From Colwellia sp. TT2012 (GTDB lineage Bacteria > Pseudomonadota > Gammaproteobacteria > Enterobacterales > Alteromonadaceae): a DNA stretch of 64,000 nt. The position numbers and the translations under genes are program-made. The notes under the pieces were generated by a model. It was not told where the DNA came from. It ran no database searches and saw only the letters and a program-made list of their open reading frames with translations. Shown here in pieces: positions 16,245 through 30,463 of this stretch (position 1 is the stretch's first letter; every line of letters starts with the position of its first letter). The stretch lies in NCBI RefSeq assembly GCF_001440345.1, contig NZ_LJYX01000021.1, forward strand, positions 62,001-126,000, in the 5' to 3' direction.

Positions 16245-19200
16245 ATGAGTCTCATCAACAATAAAGTCATGAGTCTGTCTATGTTAATGGTGCTATGTGC
16301 ATCACTAACGGCTATAGCAGGAAAGCAAACGTCGGATAATGGCCTTGCTAAAGAATTAAAAATAAAGGCAAGTAAACAGGCCTCGCCGGTGAAACCAAAA
16401 ACGCTTGTTAAGGGCAATACCCTAGCAAAAAGTTTACTGAAAAGTCGTAATGTTCATCAGTCTCGCGTTAGTGCAGCAAATCAAGTTTGTGCCATTGATG
16501 AAAACGGTCAGGATTGGAGTAAATTACAAAAAAAATTAACTAAAGAGCTTAAACAATTTACCTTGTCAGCTAGCAAGACCCGTAGATCGTTATCAAGTAG
16601 ATCTTTGGCAACTAGCCGTATGGCTAGAACCAGCACCTTAGCGGCAACTTCTGGTGTAGCCGACAATGGTGTAGCGGGACGTTATTATATTCCGGTAGTT
16701 TTTCATGTTTATGGAGCAGATTTCACCTGTGATGATGCCGCCCAAAGCTGCTTAACCGATGCAAAAATAGTTGATGCACTACAACGCCTTAATGAAGATT
16801 TTCAAGGCACCAATACCCAAGATGGCCCGATTGCTCCACAGTTTCAAGCTATTCGTGACAACTTAAATGTTGAGTTTGTTTTAGCTAAGAAATCTCCAAC
16901 GGGTGCTGACACCACAGGTATTGTACGTTACGGGCGTGAGCAAGCAGGTTATGGTAATGGCGCTGGCGCTGATACGGCCATTGCAGGGGATGCTTGGGAT
17001 AACTTTAAGTACATGAACGTTTATATTATGAACGACTTGTATGATGATGGTTCAACCAATAACTCAGGCGTTGCTTGGTATCCTGATGTAGCAATGAGCC
17101 AAGCCAACACCTCGCGCGTGGTTTATAACGGTTGGTATGTTGGTGATAATACCGATGAAAATTTCCGTTCGGTATTAACCCATGAGTTTGGCCATTGGTT
17201 GAATCTACCACATACCTTTGCCGATAATAGCTGTTCATTAGAAAACGAAACCTTTTGTGCTTTAACCGGCGATAGAAGCTGTGATACACCACAAATGTCG
17301 TTATCAACTGACATGTATGAAAACTCGAAAAACTGTCTTGGTCAGCCGACCAACACCGAAAACTTCATGCACTATACCAGCAATTATGCCATGTTTACTC
17401 AAGGGCAAGTAGCACGTATGACCGCTGCTTTACATGGCGACGCACGGGCAACACTTTGGTCCAATGACAACCTAATTGCTACCGGTTTAACAGCTTACAC
17501 CAGCAATGCTGATCATCCGTGGGATGGTATTTCAGGTACGGATAATGGTCCAACGGGCGAGGTTATCGCTAGTTTTGATAACTTATCAGCAGAAATAGAT
17601 GCCATCGATACTTTTGTCGTTGATGTGCCTGATGGCACTGAAGCTTTGGCATTTTACTTATCTGGCTATAGCCAAGATCCTGATATGTATGTATCTGTTG
17701 GTCAAGCTTCGACTCTACAAACGGATGGTTCTTGGCAAGCAGATTATATTTCATTCTTGTCTGCAGCTACGCCAGAGTTTATTGGTGTCTTAGGACCAAA
17801 AACAACGGATTCATATCACGCCACAGTACATGCTTTTAGCGCTTACGATAAAGCTAACTTGCAAATATTAGCGGTTGAAGATCCTTTATTAGCTAAGGGA
17901 AATAAACGCTACCATGTTATTAAGCAAGCCGGTTTATGGTCAGCTGCAGGTATAGCGCCGAAAAACTATCAATTTACTATCCCTGATAGCGCTGAAAAAG
18001 TAGTTGTCGTTTTTGCCGGTGCTTACGGCGGTGATCCAGACATGTATGTTAGCCGCAATAAAGCCGTTGATACTCAAGCTGCTGATTGTGCGCCATTTAG
18101 CGCCGCTAAATTAGCTGAGTATTGTGAATTTGACCAAGGTGGCACCTTTAATATCTTAATCGACCCCTTTGCTGAGTATTGGGATGGCGAATTGCATGTG
18201 TATTATGAAACAAGTGATGATAGCAATCAGCCACCTTTCGCCATTACAGCACCAACTTATCAAGCAATGCTTGACCATGAAGTACACTTTAACGGTGACT
18301 CTTCAACAGATGTAGATGGCAAACTTGTTAGCTACCTTTGGGATTTTGGTAACGGTGAAAGTAGCACTGAAATTAATCCAGTTTATGTTTATAACCAACT
18401 AGGTCAATACAACGCCAGCTTAACGGTTACTGATAACATGGGTATCAGTAGTACTACTAATACGGTTGTTAATATCACTTTATACAATCCAAACGATGCG
18501 GTGTTATGTGACGGTTGTAGTCGTGTTTATTTAACCGAAGAAATAGGTTTATCTGCGGCTAAAGGTAGTGAACCCCGTACTTATAAATTCAGTGTACCCA
18601 CTGCTGCATCTCTGGTAGTGATTGAAATTGTTGCCGGTTCAAATGGAGATCCAGATTTACATGTGAGTCAAAACAAAGCGGTATCTATTGAATCCTTTAC
18701 TTGTCGTCCTTGGGACGGTCCAGGTGCATTAGAAAGCTGTCAGTTCACAGAGGGTGGCATATTTAATGTCATGATTGACCCTTTTGATGCTTACAGTGAC
18801 GTTACCTTTAAAGCGTATTACGACATTAGAGATGATGCCGACCATTCAATGCCTAACGAGTTGCCAATTGCGCAAGCAGGTGCAAGTTATACCGGTTTTA
18901 CCGGCAATGCCTTAACGCTGAGTAGTGCCGGTTCAATGGATGAAGATGGTCACATTGTTAGCTACTTGTGGAACTTAGGTGACGGTAATACTAGTGACTT
19001 AGAAAATCCTCAGCATAACTATGCACAAGCGGGTCAATATAACATTAGCTTAACGGTTACCGATAACGATGGCGCAATGGCTACCGCTACAGCGACAGTT
19101 ATTATTAACCCTGCGGGTGATATGGATGGCGACGGTGATGTTGACAGACTTGATATTCGCGCTTTTGGTTTAGCGCTTCGTCGTGGACAAGCGTTAGATG

Positions 19201-19934
19201 CATCATTTGACTTAAATGGTGACGGTATCATTAACTCTCGTGATGTTAGATTAATGAGAAGTTTATGTTCTTATGATCGCTGTAGCTCAATTGCACCACC
19301 ACCACAACCACCAACAGCAGTTGCTACGGGCAATGATAACGTAGAGCAATTTAACTCTATAACCTTTAGTAGTGCCGGTTCAAATGATCAATACGGACGC
19401 ATTGTGAGTTATTCATGGGATTTTGGTGACGGTGCAACAAGTAACCAAACCAACCCGAGCCATAGCTTTGAACAAGTAGGTAGCTTCAACGTAACACTGA
19501 CCGTAACGGACAATGATGGTATGACAGCAACAGATACTATTGCCCTTAATGTAAATTACGGACCATTAGCTGATAGCTGTGCAGCTCAGCCAGCTTTTGT
19601 TGATGGCACGTTAGAAGCAGGCAGTGTTACTTGTTTAGGTGCAGACAGCAGCCAAAGCTTCTCAGTACCTGATATTAATAACCATCAAAGCATCGCGATT
19701 ACTGTTGCCCATGGCACGGGTGATTTATCACTGTATTACCGTAATAGCGGCTGGGTAAACCTTAATAATGGCGGTTTTGATGCCTCTTCAACTGAAGCAA
19801 ATAATCAAGCTTGTATCTACCTTGAGTTAACGCCAGAAATGGATTACTGGAGTTATATAGAGCTTACCGGTGCCAGCTCTGGCGCAACCATAGTGGTTGA
19901 TTTTGATGTTCAGGGTTGTCGCCCTGCTCAATAA
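16245..19934 (+). CDS. Secreted M43-like metallopeptidase with PKD domains and internal dockerin
   Basis: This 1229-residue exoenzyme has a signal peptide (about 1-26), a propeptide-like basic region (27-145) and a zinc peptidase domain. HEFGHWLNLPH (313-323) gives the HExxHxxxxxH ligands, and NFMHYTSN (Met-turn M375) completes the M43/pappalysin-type site. After it come pre-peptidase C-terminal-like beta domains (about 440-540, 551-656 and 751-860), PKD domains (about 664-747, 872-956 and 1022-1105, each with WDFG(N/D)G or WNLGDG and LTVTDN) and a last beta domain (1106-1229). At 958-1014 is a dockerin with two calcium loops (DMDGDGDVDRLD and DLNGDGIINSRD). It lies between PKD domains rather than at the end. 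The likely substrate is extracellular protein. A cohesin-like gene follows. Confidence 0.88.
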   Translation: MSLINNKVMSLSMLMVLCASLTAIAGKQTSDNGLAKELKIKASKQASPVKPKTLVKGNTLAKSLLKSRNVHQSRVSAANQVCAIDENGQDWSKLQKKLTKELKQFTLSASKTRRSLSSRSLATSRMARTSTLAATSGVADNGVAGRYYIPVVFHVYGADFTCDDAAQSCLTDAKIVDALQRLNEDFQGTNTQDGPIAPQFQAIRDNLNVEFVLAKKSPTGADTTGIVRYGREQAGYGNGAGADTAIAGDAWDNFKYMNVYIMNDLYDDGSTNNSGVAWYPDVAMSQANTSRVVYNGWYVGDNTDENFRSVLTHEFGHWLNLPHTFADNSCSLENETFCALTGDRSCDTPQMSLSTDMYENSKNCLGQPTNTENFMHYTSNYAMFTQGQVARMTAALHGDARATLWSNDNLIATGLTAYTSNADHPWDGISGTDNGPTGEVIASFDNLSAEIDAIDTFVVDVPDGTEALAFYLSGYSQDPDMYVSVGQASTLQTDGSWQADYISFLSAATPEFIGVLGPKTTDSYHATVHAFSAYDKANLQILAVEDPLLAKGNKRYHVIKQAGLWSAAGIAPKNYQFTIPDSAEKVVVVFAGAYGGDPDMYVSRNKAVDTQAADCAPFSAAKLAEYCEFDQGGTFNILIDPFAEYWDGELHVYYETSDDSNQPPFAITAPTYQAMLDHEVHFNGDSSTDVDGKLVSYLWDFGNGESSTEINPVYVYNQLGQYNASLTVTDNMGISSTTNTVVNITLYNPNDAVLCDGCSRVYLTEEIGLSAAKGSEPRTYKFSVPTAASLVVIEIVAGSNGDPDLHVSQNKAVSIESFTCRPWDGPGALESCQFTEGGIFNVMIDPFDAYSDVTFKAYYDIRDDADHSMPNELPIAQAGASYTGFTGNALTLSSAGSMDEDGHIVSYLWNLGDGNTSDLENPQHNYAQAGQYNISLTVTDNDGAMATATATVIINPAGDMDGDGDVDRLDIRAFGLALRRGQALDASFDLNGDGIINSRDVRLMRSLCSYDRCSSIAPPPQPPTAVATGNDNVEQFNSITFSSAGSNDQYGRIVSYSWDFGDGATSNQTNPSHSFEQVGSFNVTLTVTDNDGMTATDTIALNVNYGPLADSCAAQPAFVDGTLEAGSVTCLGADSSQSFSVPDINNHQSIAITVAHGTGDLSLYYRNSGWVNLNNGGFDASSTEANNQACIYLELTPEMDYWSYIELTGASSGATIVVDFDVQGCRPAQ
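19116..19286 (+). other. Dockerin domain segment in the M43-like peptidase
   Basis: Codes for residues 958-1014 of the enzyme. By my count, 46 of 57 residues are identical to the dockerin of the M9-like enzyme (23955-24131). The DNA differs at many third positions, so the protein sequence has been kept by selection rather than by recent copying. Both end in a CxYDRCS motif that could add a disulphide. Confidence 0.85.
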
Positions 19935-19952
19935 AACTCACATCTAAAAAAT

Positions 19953-19985
19953 AAAAGAAGCCAGTCATGTGGCTGGCTTCTTTTT
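19953..19985 (+). terminator. Intrinsic terminator after the M43-like gene
   Basis: GAAGCCAG (19957-19964) pairs with CTGGCTTC (19973-19980), with an A tract before and five T after. It separates the peptidase transcript from the cohesin-like gene starting 61 bases later. Confidence 0.85.
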
Positions 19986-20045
19986 AAACAATGAATAAAA
20001 TTTATTAATAACACTTCATAAAAATAACTATATAAAGGAAAAACC

Positions 20046-20600
20046 ATGAAAAAATTTATTGCTATGCTTACTTTACTTATCGGCTTTAATGCTAATGCTG
20101 GCTTATTAACTATCGACTTTTCAGCTGATGAGGTTTCAGTAGGCGAATCAGTATTGGTTACTATTAGTGCTACTGATTTTGAAGAAAGCACATACTTTGG
20201 TTTTAACTTTAACTTTGATAACTCTGGGATGATTTACCAAGAAAGTTCATTAACTAGTGGTCTAGATTTAAGTATAGATACCCCTATGCTTGACGGCCTA
20301 GAAGTAGTGACTGAAGCTTTTGGCTTAAATTTCAATTTTTTATCGGATGACCCTTCAATATTTGCAGCAGGTAACTTTGTACTTGCTAGTTTTAATTTGA
20401 TTGCTGATGCCACAGGCTCATTTGATTTCTCAATCTCAGATCTTTATGACGATTGGAGTTTTGTTGATCACACTGTCGCTTTTTCTGGTGCTGACTCAGT
20501 GAATGTGACTGCTGCTGTAGCGGTATCTGAGCCTAGTGCTGCATTTATGATGATGTTAGCTGGTTTTGCTTTAGTTAGCAGCCGTCGTAAAGCTAAGTAA
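20046..20600 (+). CDS. Cohesin-like domain protein with PEP-CTERM anchor signal
   Basis: The 184-residue protein has a signal peptide (1-18, MKKFIAMLTLLIGFNANA), a beta-rich domain (20-155) and a PEP-CTERM tail (161-184): SEPSAAFMMMLAGFALV followed by SSRRKAK. The domain follows the cohesin pattern: FSADEVSVGESVLVTISATD (strand 1 with the VGE/VGD turn), FGFNFNFDNSGMIYQESS, then FAAGNFVLASFNLIADATGS (like the FATIxFKxxxxAxxG region of cohesins). In PEP-CTERM proteins the tail is recognised by an exosortase and the protein is anchored or processed at the surface. The tail has SEP rather than PEP. AAAGGAAAAACC precedes the ATG. Dockerin enzymes flank it on both sides. No exosortase gene is in the window. 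Confidence 0.75.
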   Translation: MKKFIAMLTLLIGFNANAGLLTIDFSADEVSVGESVLVTISATDFEESTYFGFNFNFDNSGMIYQESSLTSGLDLSIDTPMLDGLEVVTEAFGLNFNFLSDDPSIFAAGNFVLASFNLIADATGSFDFSISDLYDDWSFVDHTVAFSGADSVNVTAAVAVSEPSAAFMMMLAGFALVSSRRKAK

Positions 20601-20680
20601 CTCATCACATATATAGCGAAGTAAACCGCTAAATAAACGCCTACAAAAGTAAAATAGTAATACATGGATGTATTTTTTCA

Positions 20681-20710
20681 CCGAGAAAGTTGTTTTGGCA
20701 GCTTTCTCGG
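20681..20710 (+). terminator. Hairpin after the cohesin-like gene
   Basis: CCGAGAAAG (20681-20689) and CTTTCTCGG (20702-20710) are perfect 9-base arms followed by TTCAT. The T tract is short, so some transcription may read on into the M9-like gene at 20802. Confidence 0.6.
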
Positions 20711-20801
20711 TTCATAGATGCTCCTACCTTGAAAACTATAAAACTCATATAAATCAATTAAAAATCAATTAAAAACAACAAAAATTGAAATAGGTCTTAC
20801 A

Positions 20802-23800
20802 ATGAAATTTTTACCTAAAAAGTCGCTACTTGCTAGCGCACTGTTACTGTCGATGAATATCGCCAATGTCCAAGCTGTAGAAATGTGTGGCGAGAAAACA
20901 TTGCCACGTCAAGGCGAAGTTCCCGCTAACGAAATACACTGTATGACTGATTATGGTCATTACTTATATGTCGATGTTCCTTATGATAATAGCGATGTAA
21001 CCATTACTACTTCGGGTGGTACTTTTACTGGCTCTGATGCTGATATTTCTCTTTATACAGGAACTTGGTGGGGTGACGGAACTATCGAAGCGACTAGCGC
21101 TAACCCTGATACCAACGATGAAAGTATTTCATTTGTATCACATGCTGGTAAACGTTACTTCCACATTGGCGGTAACATTCAACAAACCAGTATAATTATT
21201 AACATTAGCGGTGGTGATATTCCAGAGCCGCCACCACCTATGGGGGAATATAATAATGATTACCCTACAAGTACTGCTATTAGCGTACCTGCAGCACTTA
21301 TTACGGCTAAAGCCCAGTATGGCGCTAGCATTAGTGAAATATTAGCCTCTGATTATAGTGGTTTTAAAGACATTGCCGGCGCTGTGAACGACCCAATCAC
21401 TGATGTTTCACAAGCTATTCATTATCTTGCTGAAGCAGATGATTTAGCCGATCCGGACCTTAACCAGTTATTATACTTTTTAGCCACTTATAAATATTAT
21501 GCTGAGCAAATGACGGACTCAGAAGCACAAGCGTTAAGCACTGCATTATTAGCGGTTACCCAAATGACCGGTTTTGTCAGTCCTGCCGGTAGCGTAATAC
21601 AAGAAGGTTATGCTTATGCATTAACAAACTTAGAACGCTACTCGGGCGCAGCATTTTATAAAGATCAATTACCGCATTTATTAGGCCTTATTCAATACTA
21701 TTCATTACAAAGTAACCCATTCGCTATCAGCAATGCTGGTGATACCACTATGGCATTAATGGGCGCTATTGCTTCTGCCGCCTATTATGGTGATGCTCCA
21801 GTTAAAGCCACGTATAACGAGAATATGTTAGATGTATTATCTGTTATGCGCTCATTTATATTTATAGGTGAAACTTCACTTGATATGCGCTGGTCTGCTG
21901 AAGATGACAGAAAATGGATAATGCCTCATTCGTTTAATGCCATGGGTAAAATTTCCACTATTGCTACCGATGAAGCTAAAGCCCGTTTTGACAGTACTAT
22001 TCTAGAAGCTCACGGTAAAGTTACTGGTGATATTTCACAAGAAACAGCAAGCATTATTGTGACTAAGAATTATCTAGATAACGCTGGCCGTAGTTGTGAA
22101 GAAGGCGATGCCTTATTTGGTAGCTGTATTGTGCCACCTAAAGTAGCAGATATTTTAACGGTAAATCATGCTTGTACTGATAACATTACTATACGTGCAC
22201 AAAGCTCAATCAGCCCAGCAACGCTTGCACAATCATGTGCAGATATGGCACTACAAGAAAGCGAATTTCATGCCTTCTTTAATACTGCCGGCATTCCCGT
22301 AACTGGCGATTTAAATGAACACATCGAAGTAGTTGCTTTTGCTAGCCCTGAAGATTATGAAAAATATGCTGGCGAATTTTTTGGTATCAGTACTGATAAC
22401 GGCGGTATGTATTTAGAAGGCACACCAACAGCTCAAGGTAACCAAGCTCGTTTTATTGCCATGCAATGCCCTGATTCTTGGCTTGGTGGCTCATGCCAGT
22501 ACATTGATCAAATATATAACCTAAGACATGAATTTACTCATTATCTTGACGGTCGTTATATTAAAGCCGGCTCTTATGGTAATTTTGATTATGCCGTGGC
22601 TTGGGCAGAAGGCATGGCTGAGTACATGGCTATGGGTAATGAACATCCCCGTACCCTAGCGACTTTACAAGGTGAAACCATTCCTCCTTTATATAACATC
22701 GTATTTATGGATTATGAGTACGATGACTTATATCAATGGGGCTATTTTGCCATGCGTTATTTAGGTGAACAGCATAAAGACGATTTAAACCTTATCGTTG
22801 CCGCCTTACAATCAGGCAATAACAATGCTTATGTTGCTACACTTAAAGAGGTAGTACTGCGCACAGCTTCAGGATTTGAAACTTTTGTACTAGCAAACTC
22901 TGAAACAGTGGCGCCAATCGCTGCACAAATGCCGGCAGCTGATACCATTGGCAGCTGTGACTTAGTCCAGCAATATCCGCGTTATTATGATGCCAGTAAA
23001 ACTAACTTTACCTTTACTAACACCACAGATACGCCAGTTTCACTATTCTGGGTAAATAGTACTACCGGTAAAACTAACTTTGGCAAAAACTATAAAACCT
23101 TAAACCATGGTGATACTTACACATCAGCCAGTTGGACGGTAGGCGATCGCATGATGTTAAGCGATAACAACATGAATTGTTTGGGTGTTGCGGTAATGGC
23201 AGCAGATGACAATACTTTCACCATTACAGCTGATTTAGTGAAAGATGTTATTGTTGATGAAATCCCTGAATTAAACCAAATGGGCAGTTGTGACTTAGCA
23301 CTACCTCATTTGATCATGGATGAATCACATCAATTCACTATTACCAATACCTCTGATACACCGGTACGCTTATTTAGAATTGATAATACCACAGGTGAAA
23401 TTATTACTACCAGTGGTGCCAATGACTTTACCCACGGCTATGGCATATTAGCGCCTGGGGCAAGTTATAGTAACGATGTTTGGTATGGTGACCGTCGCTT
23501 AATGGTGACTGACAGCAATTTAAATTGCTTAAGTATAGGTGTATTAAATAATGCGGTAAGTAGCTTTACGGTTGATGAAACCATTGTTGCTAAAGCCGCT
23601 ACACCAGAGGTTATTCCAGCAGCAAATGTTATTGGTAGCTGTGCGTTACAAGCGCCTCATTTGGTTGGTCCATTTGAAAGTGATTTCTCTTTTGTTAATA
23701 ACAGCGATCACACTGTGCGAGTTTATCGTGTTGATAATGTTACTGGTGAGCTAAGTGAGAGCTTTGGTTTTACCACACTAGCAAAAGGTGAGACTTACGA

Positions 23801-24152
23801 CAGTATCGCTACTTGGAAATGGTTTGGTAACCGTCGTGCCGCTATTACTGATGAAAGTGGACATTGTGCTGGTGTGGCTGTGATGACAGAAGAAGATACT
23901 AGTAACGATTATGAAATTACTAATGTGCTTTTTGAACCCAATGTACCTGATGTTGTCATTGGCGATATGGACAACGATGGCGATGTTGACAGAATTGACA
24001 TCAGAGCGTTTGGTTTAGCACTTCGCCGTGGTGAAGATCTCCATATATCATTTGATTTAAATGCAGATGGCGTTATCAATTCACGCGATGTGAGATTAAT
24101 GAGAGGCATTTGTACTTACGATCGTTGTAGTGAAAACCCAACACCGGAGTAA
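20802..24152 (+). CDS. Secreted M9 collagenase-like metallopeptidase with three VHL-like repeats and dockerin
   Basis: This 1116-residue enzyme has a signal peptide (1-25), a beta domain (about 28-137), a Pro-rich linker (PEPPPP, 141-146), a helical M9 activator region (about 150-430) and the catalytic part. HEFTHYLDGRY (H576, E577, H580) with WAEGMAEY (E603) is the collagenase zinc site. Three repeats follow (about 715-815, 825-925, 943-1045), each starting with GSC(D/A)L and containing FxxxNxxDxxVxLFxVxxxTG and a closing NCLGVAVM-like strand. They resemble pVHL beta domains. Residues 1052-1110 are a dockerin (DMDNDGDVDRID and DLNADGVINSRD) almost identical to that of the M43-like enzyme. 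The likely substrates are collagen-like or other matrix proteins. A terminator follows. Confidence 0.88.
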   Translation: MKFLPKKSLLASALLLSMNIANVQAVEMCGEKTLPRQGEVPANEIHCMTDYGHYLYVDVPYDNSDVTITTSGGTFTGSDADISLYTGTWWGDGTIEATSANPDTNDESISFVSHAGKRYFHIGGNIQQTSIIINISGGDIPEPPPPMGEYNNDYPTSTAISVPAALITAKAQYGASISEILASDYSGFKDIAGAVNDPITDVSQAIHYLAEADDLADPDLNQLLYFLATYKYYAEQMTDSEAQALSTALLAVTQMTGFVSPAGSVIQEGYAYALTNLERYSGAAFYKDQLPHLLGLIQYYSLQSNPFAISNAGDTTMALMGAIASAAYYGDAPVKATYNENMLDVLSVMRSFIFIGETSLDMRWSAEDDRKWIMPHSFNAMGKISTIATDEAKARFDSTILEAHGKVTGDISQETASIIVTKNYLDNAGRSCEEGDALFGSCIVPPKVADILTVNHACTDNITIRAQSSISPATLAQSCADMALQESEFHAFFNTAGIPVTGDLNEHIEVVAFASPEDYEKYAGEFFGISTDNGGMYLEGTPTAQGNQARFIAMQCPDSWLGGSCQYIDQIYNLRHEFTHYLDGRYIKAGSYGNFDYAVAWAEGMAEYMAMGNEHPRTLATLQGETIPPLYNIVFMDYEYDDLYQWGYFAMRYLGEQHKDDLNLIVAALQSGNNNAYVATLKEVVLRTASGFETFVLANSETVAPIAAQMPAADTIGSCDLVQQYPRYYDASKTNFTFTNTTDTPVSLFWVNSTTGKTNFGKNYKTLNHGDTYTSASWTVGDRMMLSDNNMNCLGVAVMAADDNTFTITADLVKDVIVDEIPELNQMGSCDLALPHLIMDESHQFTITNTSDTPVRLFRIDNTTGEIITTSGANDFTHGYGILAPGASYSNDVWYGDRRLMVTDSNLNCLSIGVLNNAVSSFTVDETIVAKAATPEVIPAANVIGSCALQAPHLVGPFESDFSFVNNSDHTVRVYRVDNVTGELSESFGFTTLAKGETYDSIATWKWFGNRRAAITDESGHCAGVAVMTEEDTSNDYEITNVLFEPNVPDVVIGDMDNDGDVDRIDIRAFGLALRRGEDLHISFDLNADGVINSRDVRLMRGICTYDRCSENPTPE
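23955..24131 (+). other. Dockerin domain segment in the M9-like peptidase
   Basis: Codes for residues 1052-1110, six residues from the end of the enzyme. Two duplicated EF-hand-like calcium loops flank the shared core RAFGLALRRGE. Partner-contact positions after the loops (R-I and S-R) are nearly the same as in the M43-like enzyme (R-L and S-R), so both should bind the same cohesin. Confidence 0.85.
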
Positions 24153-28661: not shown

Positions 28662-29684
28662 ATGTTAAGCCAGCCCTTTTTTAAATACAGTTTTTTTACC
28701 TTACTCGCCGTTGATCTTATGTATACTGCTGGCTTGATTATTTCGGGCCTATCAACGATTTCTCTCGATACCTTACTCGCGACCACAATCTGGTTTGTCA
28801 GTTTTTATTGGTTACCTGTTTGGGCGGCGGCTTATGTAATTTTTAAACTTAGATATCGAAGTATTGAAAATGCCTTGATTGAATGGATCATCACGGTAAT
28901 GATGATGAGCATAGGTATACTCATTACGGAAAAATTTCTAAAAATAAGCTTTGGTGATTCATTTTCTTTGGGTAACTTCTTAGTTTTAGGTGGCGTAGTT
29001 TGGGGCACGCCTATCTACTTTATTAGCCGATATATTGAAAGCAGAGGCAAGATAACACAGGAAAAACAAGCCAGAAAACAAGCTCAGCTACAGGCCTTAA
29101 GGTATCAACTCAACCCGCACTTTATGTTCAATAGTTTAAATACCATTTCAGCTTATATTCATTCAAACCCAGATTTAGCTGATGAAGTATTACATGAATT
29201 GGCTGATATCCTTCGTTATTCATTAGATACCGGCGAAAAAAACAGTGTATCTCTCCAACAAGAAATTGCCATTATTGACAAATATTTGAATATAGAAAAA
29301 GCGCGTTTTGGCGACCGACTTATCGTTAACTTTGATATTCCAGCAGAGCTGTTAAATACCCAAGTTCCGCCGCTAATTTTACAGCCTATAGTTGAAAATT
29401 CGGTCAAGCATAATGCTCAACAAAACGAACTGGTAATCACCATTAAAGTAGAAAAAATCGCTAAAAACAAAGATGAAATATTAAGAATATCGATCAGTGA
29501 TAACGGCTCTGGTTTTAGTGAAGCTGTGTTAACTAAAGGCTATGGTAAGGGCATTGGTATGAAAAACTTGCAACTGCGCATGCAACAACTGCCGCGAGGT
29601 AAAGTCAGTTTAAGCAATGGCACTAATGACAAGGACTCTGCAGACAACACAGGTGCGACGGTACTGGTGGAGATGGCGCTATGA
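28662..29684 (+). CDS. LytS/YehU-type sensor histidine kinase
   Basis: The 340-residue inner-membrane kinase has four membrane segments (about 10-30, 40-62, 72-90 and 103-122), a short coiled linker and a His_kinase domain. LRYQLNPHFMFNSLNTISAY carries the phosphorylated H153, and the ATP site is PPLILQPIVENSVKHNA with SDNGSGF. The family signals to LytTR regulators. The 3' end overlaps the next gene by four bases (ATGA), a tight translational link to its partner. The stimulus is not evident. Confidence 0.93.
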   Translation: MLSQPFFKYSFFTLLAVDLMYTAGLIISGLSTISLDTLLATTIWFVSFYWLPVWAAAYVIFKLRYRSIENALIEWIITVMMMSIGILITEKFLKISFGDSFSLGNFLVLGGVVWGTPIYFISRYIESRGKITQEKQARKQAQLQALRYQLNPHFMFNSLNTISAYIHSNPDLADEVLHELADILRYSLDTGEKNSVSLQQEIAIIDKYLNIEKARFGDRLIVNFDIPAELLNTQVPPLILQPIVENSVKHNAQQNELVITIKVEKIAKNKDEILRISISDNGSGFSEAVLTKGYGKGIGMKNLQLRMQQLPRGKVSLSNGTNDKDSADNTGATVLVEMAL

Positions 29685-30463
29685 ATAAGTTAACGGGCAA
29701 GGAAATACCAGATAAAATGCGCGTTATTTTTGCTGACGATGAAAAACCAGCCAGAGATAAACTCGCCCATCAGTTAAGTCTTATTGCAGATATTGACGTG
29801 GTCGGTTTTGCCACCACAGGCAAGGAAGCTGTCGCGCTAATTAATACCCAAAAACCTGATTTAGTGTTACTGGATATTCAAATGCCTGAAATTAGCGGCA
29901 TGGAGTTATTAAGTTTACTTGATTATAAACCACTGATCATTTTTACCACTGCTTATGATCAATTTGCCATCCAAGCCTTTGAACAGTCATCTACTGATTA
30001 CCTGTTAAAGCCCTTCCCTCTGGGACGGTTAAAAGCGGCTATAGATAAAGCAAAAAAACAGTTTTTGGCCGGCTTAACGATAGAGAGAACCCAACAAGAA
30101 CAGCACTATATACTCAATAATAACGCACCGATTAAACGCTTGGTCAGTAAAAATGGTGAGCGCATGACCATATTATCACCAAGTGACTTACTCTTTATCA
30201 AATCGTCTCAAGGTAATTGCTTAGCTTGGGATGGTAAAGAGCATCATTACTTATCAGAAAAACTCGACTGCTTAGAGCAATCATTAGCGTCAGCAGACTT
30301 CGTACGTATTCATCGAAGTTACCTAATTAATATCGATAAAATTAAAGAGATTCAACGTTGGTTTAATGGCAAATTAATGGTGATCATGAATGATGAGGAT
30401 AAAACAGAACTCAGCACCAGTCGCGCTGGTGCTGATAAGTTAAAGCAGTTATTAAGTTTATAA
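29681..30463 (+). CDS. LytTR-family response regulator
   Basis: The 260-residue protein has a receiver domain: acidic pocket FADDEKPARDKL, phosphorylation site D65 in LVLLDIQMPE, switch T in FTTAYD and K in LLKPFPLGRL. A LytTR DNA-binding domain follows (about 155-256, LLFIKSSQGN, FVRIHRSYLINIDKI). It starts inside the kinase stop (ATGA overlap), with GGAG eight bases upstream. A second Met at residue 13 is closer to typical starts but lacks this arrangement. LytTR proteins bind short direct repeats; the target genes are not obvious here. Confidence 0.93.
   Translation: MNKLTGKEIPDKMRVIFADDEKPARDKLAHQLSLIADIDVVGFATTGKEAVALINTQKPDLVLLDIQMPEISGMELLSLLDYKPLIIFTTAYDQFAIQAFEQSSTDYLLKPFPLGRLKAAIDKAKKQFLAGLTIERTQQEQHYILNNNAPIKRLVSKNGERMTILSPSDLLFIKSSQGNCLAWDGKEHHYLSEKLDCLEQSLASADFVRIHRSYLINIDKIKEIQRWFNGKLMVIMNDEDKTELSTSRAGADKLKQLLSL

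Follow-up and report, generated by a model that had tools for sequence, protein, structure and literature searches.

A single-cohesin protein with a PEP-CTERM-like tail encoded between two dockerin-bearing metallopeptidases of Colwellia sp. TT2012, a probable surface anchor for secreted enzymes

The DNA considered here is a window of 64,000 nucleotides (nt) from the genome of the gammaproteobacterium Colwellia sp. TT2012 (contig NZ_LJYX01000021.1, positions 62,001 to 126,000 of the forward strand), and all positions are given in window coordinates. Its subject is a locus of three consecutive genes, in which two secreted metallopeptidases of different families, each carrying a dockerin, flank a small protein with a single cohesin and a PEP-CTERM-like tail. 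The features of this locus are as follows:

16245..19934, plus strand: gene 1, a secreted metallopeptidase of the M43 (pappalysin) type, 1229 amino acids (aa); from the open reading frame (ORF) and a Pfam scan, signal peptide by eye
19116..19289, plus strand: dockerin 1, inside the M43 protein; Dockerin_1 at 24.9 bits, alignment A4 and a profile match to solved dockerins
19953..19984, plus strand: 14-bp hairpin in the gap between genes 1 and 2, leading into a U-run; folding energy -21 kcal/mol (z -7.1)
20046..20600, plus strand: gene 2, the single-cohesin candidate anchor protein, 184 aa; family profile, predicted fold and tail models
20680..20711, plus strand: 14-bp hairpin in the gap between genes 2 and 3, a clear U-run being absent after the stem; folding energy -21.1 kcal/mol (z -6.8)
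20802..24152, plus strand: gene 3, a secreted peptidase of the M9 collagenase family with a C-terminal dockerin, 1116 aa; Pfam scan, signal peptide by eye
23961..24134, plus strand: dockerin 2, C-terminal in the M9 protein; alignment A4, Dockerin_1 at 20.5 bits, below cut-off

The product of gene 1 contains a Peptidase_M43 domain, three PKD domains, a PPC domain and Dockerin_1, and that of gene 3 a Peptidase_M9 domain followed by a dockerin. Dockerin 1 is internal, lying between PKD domains, and dockerin 2 forms the C-terminus of its protein. The two repeats of the type I dockerin model (PF00404, Dockerin_1; cut-off 22.9 bits) are found in both, although the score of the second dockerin, in gene 3, falls below the cut-off. 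A reading of this DNA made from the sequence only, hereafter the sequence-only reading, had described two secreted metallopeptidases with dockerins identical at 46 of 57 positions and alike in their contact positions; these statements are confirmed. Both dockerins consist of two calcium-loop/helix repeats followed by C-x4-C, and the calcium-loop residues are intact in each. Positions 10 and 11 of each loop, which we take to be the partner contacts, read R-L in dockerin 1 and R-I in dockerin 2 in the first repeat, and S-R in both in the second. The C-x4-C after repeat 2 and the Asp ladder are invariant in the 48 dockerins of alignment A4, which omits one dockerin (locus L053) whose frame is interrupted by a stop. 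A profile of these dockerins retrieves dockerins of the PDB at 2.4e-7. Counts of cohesins and dockerins in the genome refer to matches to the models built here, A1 for cohesins and A4 for dockerins. By model A4 the genome holds two dockerins, both at this locus, which rules out an adjacency by chance with ubiquitous dockerins; Pfam's own model finds dockerin 1 alone.

The protein encoded by gene 2 comprises a signal peptide (residues ~1-18, by eye), a cohesin (~19-155) and a PEP-CTERM-like tail (~159-184). Its cohesin identity is visible only with a family profile, because single-sequence searches are uninformative: PF00963 gives no match to gene 2 alone at E<=1, and a PDB search with the single sequence returns nothing useful, the best matches being pantetheinases (E 0.09). 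PF00963 matches 27 of 40 members of the gene 2 family at E<=1 (best 1.7e-7), and the family profile retrieves cohesins from the PDB at 2.9e-11. AlphaFold folds the cohesin and dockerin domains each, and the predicted cohesin fold of gene 2, together with the family profile, upholds the proposal that residues 20-155 are cohesin-like. The genome contains one full-length cohesin by model A1, two further matches spanning the C-terminal end only, and none of 102 cohesin proteins carries two cohesins. The tail of gene 2 scores slightly below the cut-off of TIGR02595 (15.0 bits, cut-off 16) and below that of PF07589 (12.6 bits, cut-off 20.7), reaches 18.7 bits in a genome-wide search, above the cut-off of 16, and belongs to a family in which PF07589 matches 32 of 40 members at E<=1. 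Eleven of the 15 named relatives of gene 2 are from Colwellia, and a search of a plasmid collection with gene 2 gave no match.

A search of the genome for an exosortase, as suggested by the sequence-only reading, found one: it is XrtA (TIGR03109, 334.9 bits), encoded on another contig within an exopolysaccharide (EPS) locus (L072, G000:C13:29001-49000). Its neighbours encode the XrtA-associated FemAB, a deacetylase, an amidotransferase, glycosyltransferases, export and chain-length proteins and a tyrosine autokinase, so that exosortase A stands together with EPS genes, as in a PEP-CTERM/XrtA system. Twelve PEP-CTERM tails score above cut-off in the genome, but at the lax E-value applied, 2 of 14 control genomes also have tails above it.

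The association of the cohesin and dockerin genes extends across the family. In an even sample of 295 genomes of the larger family, a single-sequence search finds relatives of gene 2 in 77. A dockerin-coding stretch lies immediately upstream on the same strand in the window and in all 39 fetched loci (mostly the best-scoring ones), including L053, where this stretch contains the stop. The same holds for 15 of 15 named loci, mostly from genomes already in the set of 39, and in many relatives the gap between the paired genes is 12-38 nt. With the family models, 140 genomes have a dockerin and 123 a cohesin (E<=1e-10); 116 have both, 24 a dockerin only, 7 a cohesin only and 148 neither, the absences being soft, as in most genomes about 11 cohesin candidates were scored in the first pass. 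For 92 of the 150 listed cohesin matches, the dockerin listing has an entry no more than 1.5 kb away, always upstream and on the same strand. The loci of the other 58 were all fetched and show a dockerin gene upstream in 44, downstream in 6 and none at threshold in 8. Hence 142 of the 150 listed cohesins adjoin a dockerin gene on the same strand (136 upstream, 6 downstream), and the gene neighbourhood claimed for the window is borne out family-wide. Furthermore, an exosortase is found in 206 of the 295 genomes and in 120 of the 123 with a cohesin. In a class sample of 274 genomes, nine have a cohesin match at E<=1e-10, seven of them outside the family; the adjacent gene of these seven encodes a dockerin at i-E<1e-3 in four, a weaker one (0.016) in one and none by model in two.

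Several of these loci have features of their own. For six of the eight cohesins without a dockerin at threshold (L135, L152, L168, L169, L174, L186), calcium-loop-like motifs, one or two per protein, lie towards the end of the upstream gene product; they were seen by eye or by regular expression and not counted as dockerins, and are divergent, perhaps representing further dockerin subtypes. Locus L099 has a tandem pair of dockerin-cohesin cassettes with modules alike by eye, one partner of which matches BNR_4. At L127, L129 and L141, a cohesin PEP-CTERM gene adjoins one for a very large protein (~1640-1850 aa as read, the frames being truncated by the fetched stretch) that has a dockerin match near the N-terminus.

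The enzymes that carry the dockerins are diverse. A first scan covered 38 of 49 dockerin-bearing ORFs, including the two window genes and leaving out 11, and found Exo_endo_phos in 20, Endonuclease I in 14, M43 in 7, porphyranase in 4, M9 in 1 (that of the window) and S8 in 1, families that may overlap within one protein. A second scan, of 50 out of 51 ORFs (one duplicate left out), found M9 in 19, Exo_endo_phos in 10, IgGFc_binding in 4, Endonuclease I in 3, porphyranase in 2 and M4 in 2. As the partners thus span DNases, M9, M43, M4 and S8 peptidases and porphyranases, the cohesin-dockerin pair appears to be a general enzyme clip rather than a protease complex. The ExeM/NucH extracellular nuclease model matches 23 of the 38 partners of the first scan, as does a further NCBIfam model, ExeM-GG. 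Four partners were viewed individually: one gave no match, and the other three are ExeM/NucH proteins whose alignment to the nuclease model is complete up to the last position of the model and stops a few residues short of the dockerin. GlyGly-CTERM tails are found, among others, on proteins annotated as extracellular nuclease or secreted protease (PMC3237569). The dockerin thus seems to occupy the place of the sorting tail borne by other relatives, a placement in favour of anchoring.

The locus probably encodes a one-slot surface anchor for dockerin-bearing enzymes. In the proposed mechanism, the M43 and M9 enzymes would be exported and would fold outside with calcium-loaded dockerins. The signal peptide of the gene 2 protein would direct its export and the C-terminal tail would retain it; after processing by the XrtA exosortase it would end on the outer surface or within the exopolysaccharide. 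There, its single cohesin would be occupied by no more than one enzyme molecule at any moment, held through the dockerin in a binding that is presumably calcium dependent, and the anchored enzyme would be kept with the cell or matrix rather than diffusing off. The two peptidases would compete for one anchor or occupy separate copies. Because there is a single cohesin per anchor protein, each would hold one enzyme and serve as an anchor, not as a scaffold. In a wider form, an exosortase-sorted single-cohesin protein and any hydrolase with a matching dockerin (DNase, collagenase, metzincin, porphyranase) may well constitute a general plug-in display in Gram-negative marine bacteria, with anchoring gained or swapped through the gain of a dockerin.

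The sequence-only reading had instead proposed a proteolytic assembly, in which both peptidases are united in one complex. Two enzymes of one locus with near-identical dockerins and matching contact positions do fit such a true multi-enzyme assembly. However, with one cohesin per anchor and no multi-cohesin scaffold of the family found, the enzymes would come close only through the crowding of many anchors; moreover, many relatives have a DNase, or some other enzyme that is not a protease, as the partner. The proteolytic assembly is therefore not borne out, and a multi-enzyme complex is highly improbable. The hallmarks of a cellulosome are likewise lacking: model A1 finds one single-cohesin protein and no scaffoldin in the genome, where PF00963 was not run genome-wide, and both dockerins found by model A4 are on peptidases instead of plant-polysaccharide hydrolases.

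Single-cohesin cell-surface anchors do exist in the cellulosomal Clostridia and Ruminococcus, namely OlpA and ScaE (PDB titles 3ul4, 2zf9), which resemble the gene 2 protein in that one cohesin on a cell-anchored protein catches a dockerin-bearing partner. The present system differs in being Gram-negative, in having an exosortase-type tail instead of their SLH repeats or LPXTG sortase signal, and in the pairing of the anchor gene with an enzyme gene, its clients being foremost DNases and proteases rather than cellulases and scaffoldins. The pairing appears to be a new use of a clip known from cellulose-digesting Clostridia. A passage in the literature calls the function of non-cellulosomal cohesins and dockerins unknown (PMC5244752), and a report on the Saccharophagus degradans genome mentions two dockerin-like and six cohesin-like ORFs, leaving their binding open in the section concerned (PMC2386152). 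The proteins described here are likewise non-cellulosomal, while a fixed gene pair, a probable sorting signal and an exosortase suggest a concrete function. Among sorting systems, signal peptide, C-terminal tail, XrtA and EPS locus are shared with the PEP-CTERM/XrtA system. Most PEP-CTERM genes are described as forming operons of one gene and as having little similarity to characterised proteins (Haft 2006, PMC1569441), whereas the tail-bearing gene here adjoins that of its presumed client. GlyGly-CTERM/rhombosortase tails, in turn, are listed on proteins annotated as extracellular nuclease, secreted protease and M6 peptidase, with five GlyGly-CTERM proteins in Colwellia psychrerythraea 34H (PMC3237569). 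A C-terminal tail, here a putative sorting signal, is common to both systems, but in the present one it resides on a separate cohesin protein, while a dockerin forms the end of the ExeM/NucH-type nucleases. Searches of open-access full texts returned no paper joining PEP-CTERM with dockerin, with cohesin and dockerin together, or with a cohesin domain; cohesin, dockerin and exosortase occur together in one review of methanotrophic archaea, in which the passages concerned treat these subjects separately.

An alternative to permanent anchoring is an escort function, in which the cohesin protein would act within the periplasm: bound to the dockerin, it would serve as an adaptor for secretion, a chaperone or a temporary inhibitor, with the enzyme released afterwards. 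The tail should keep the protein in the inner membrane until the exosortase acts, and the 12-38 nt gene gaps of many relatives would fit an escort that is made together with its client. Cohesin-dockerin binding is, however, usually tight and lasting, which fits poorly with release. Passages of PMC12188702 favour an escort in describing as debated where PEP-CTERM proteins finally reside, and disfavour it in reporting a stabilising effect of such proteins on EPS at the surface of the cell. An escort is unlikely.

Several observations weigh against the one-slot anchor. First, docking of cohesin and dockerin was not predicted with confidence: AlphaFold was run on two single chains, one from dockerin 1 of the window to the end of gene 2 and the other a compact dockerin-cohesin pair of C. 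psychrerythraea ND2E, and gave predicted template modelling scores (pTM) of 0.39 and 0.57, respectively. Before the second result, a pTM > 0.75 had been set as the bar for docking, and it was not reached; the comparison is by pTM only, and just two rows in each alignment were paired. Of the complex prediction suggested by the sequence-only reading, the folding of both domains stands, and the pTM values neither establish nor rule out docking. Second, dockerins are kept without a cohesin in relatives, as that reading had considered: 24 of the 140 dockerin genomes, one in the same genus, have no cohesin at E<=1e-10. Of 58 listed dockerins that lacked a listed cohesin, 20 loci were fetched; four (L098, L099, L101, L107) had an adjacent cohesin, absent from the cohesin listing, and 16 had none adjoining. 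Three of these 16 (L102, L103, L105), one from the same genus, are M43-PKD proteins with an internal dockerin, as in gene 1; the exosortase match is absent in two of the three genomes (G186, G018) and present in the third (G155). Third, 3 of the 123 cohesin genomes have no detected exosortase. Finally, strong hairpins lie in both intergenic gaps of the window locus, in contrast to the short gaps of many relatives, which suggests that genes 1, 2 and 3 are under separate control here; the three need not share a transcript. The predicted hairpin at 19953-19984 is terminator- or attenuator-like; in a stem scan its 12-pair stem appears for the minus strand alone, the plus strand being listed with a stem of 5 pairs.

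The uncertain docking and the orphan dockerins, some on the gene-1 enzyme type, would also agree with a lack of mutual binding; some other cause would then preserve the cassette, while the dockerins would bind elsewhere or act as calcium-stabilised spacers. This is quite improbable given that 142 of the 150 listed cohesins adjoin a same-strand dockerin across very different enzymes. The pairing is weakened by the orphan dockerins but still stands, because the converse case, a genome with a cohesin but no dockerin at all, is less common (7 of 123). Over 84 pairs, cohesin and dockerin distances correlate with r 0.67, or 0.57 as a partial correlation given the signal peptide and tail, against a shuffle maximum of 0.11. 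This supports the pairing only mildly, because linkage gives genes a common history and the region serving as control is short, and the joint inheritance of a linked cassette can also produce such a correlation. Column covariation in the same small set gave scattered top pairs and was not used.

If the general plug-in display is correct, a PEP-CTERM family would gain a defined binding partner, and the system would represent a Gram-negative cousin of the cellulosome clip. The destination of PEP-CTERM proteins is presented as unsettled in the passages cited above (PMC12188702). With a cohesin protein bearing a PEP-CTERM-like tail encoded beside its own dockerin enzyme, the location of the enzyme activity would report that of the exosortase substrate, so that both the role of non-cellulosomal modules and the PEP-CTERM destination become testable in Colwellia or Paraglaciecola. 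The system also bears on how marine bacteria keep the digestion of collagen, DNA and algal polysaccharides near the cell, and the pair may supply a new orthogonal protein clip for engineering.

Some minor observations concern regulation. For the sigma-54 site as in Haft 2006, with up to two mismatches to the consensus allowed, the window has 51 matches against a shuffle mean of 39, and 5 of 100 shuffles had as many as the window; none of the matches closely precedes gene 1 or gene 2, and they were not used. Downstream of the locus, at 28662-30463, the translations point to a sensor kinase paired with a LytTR-type response regulator.
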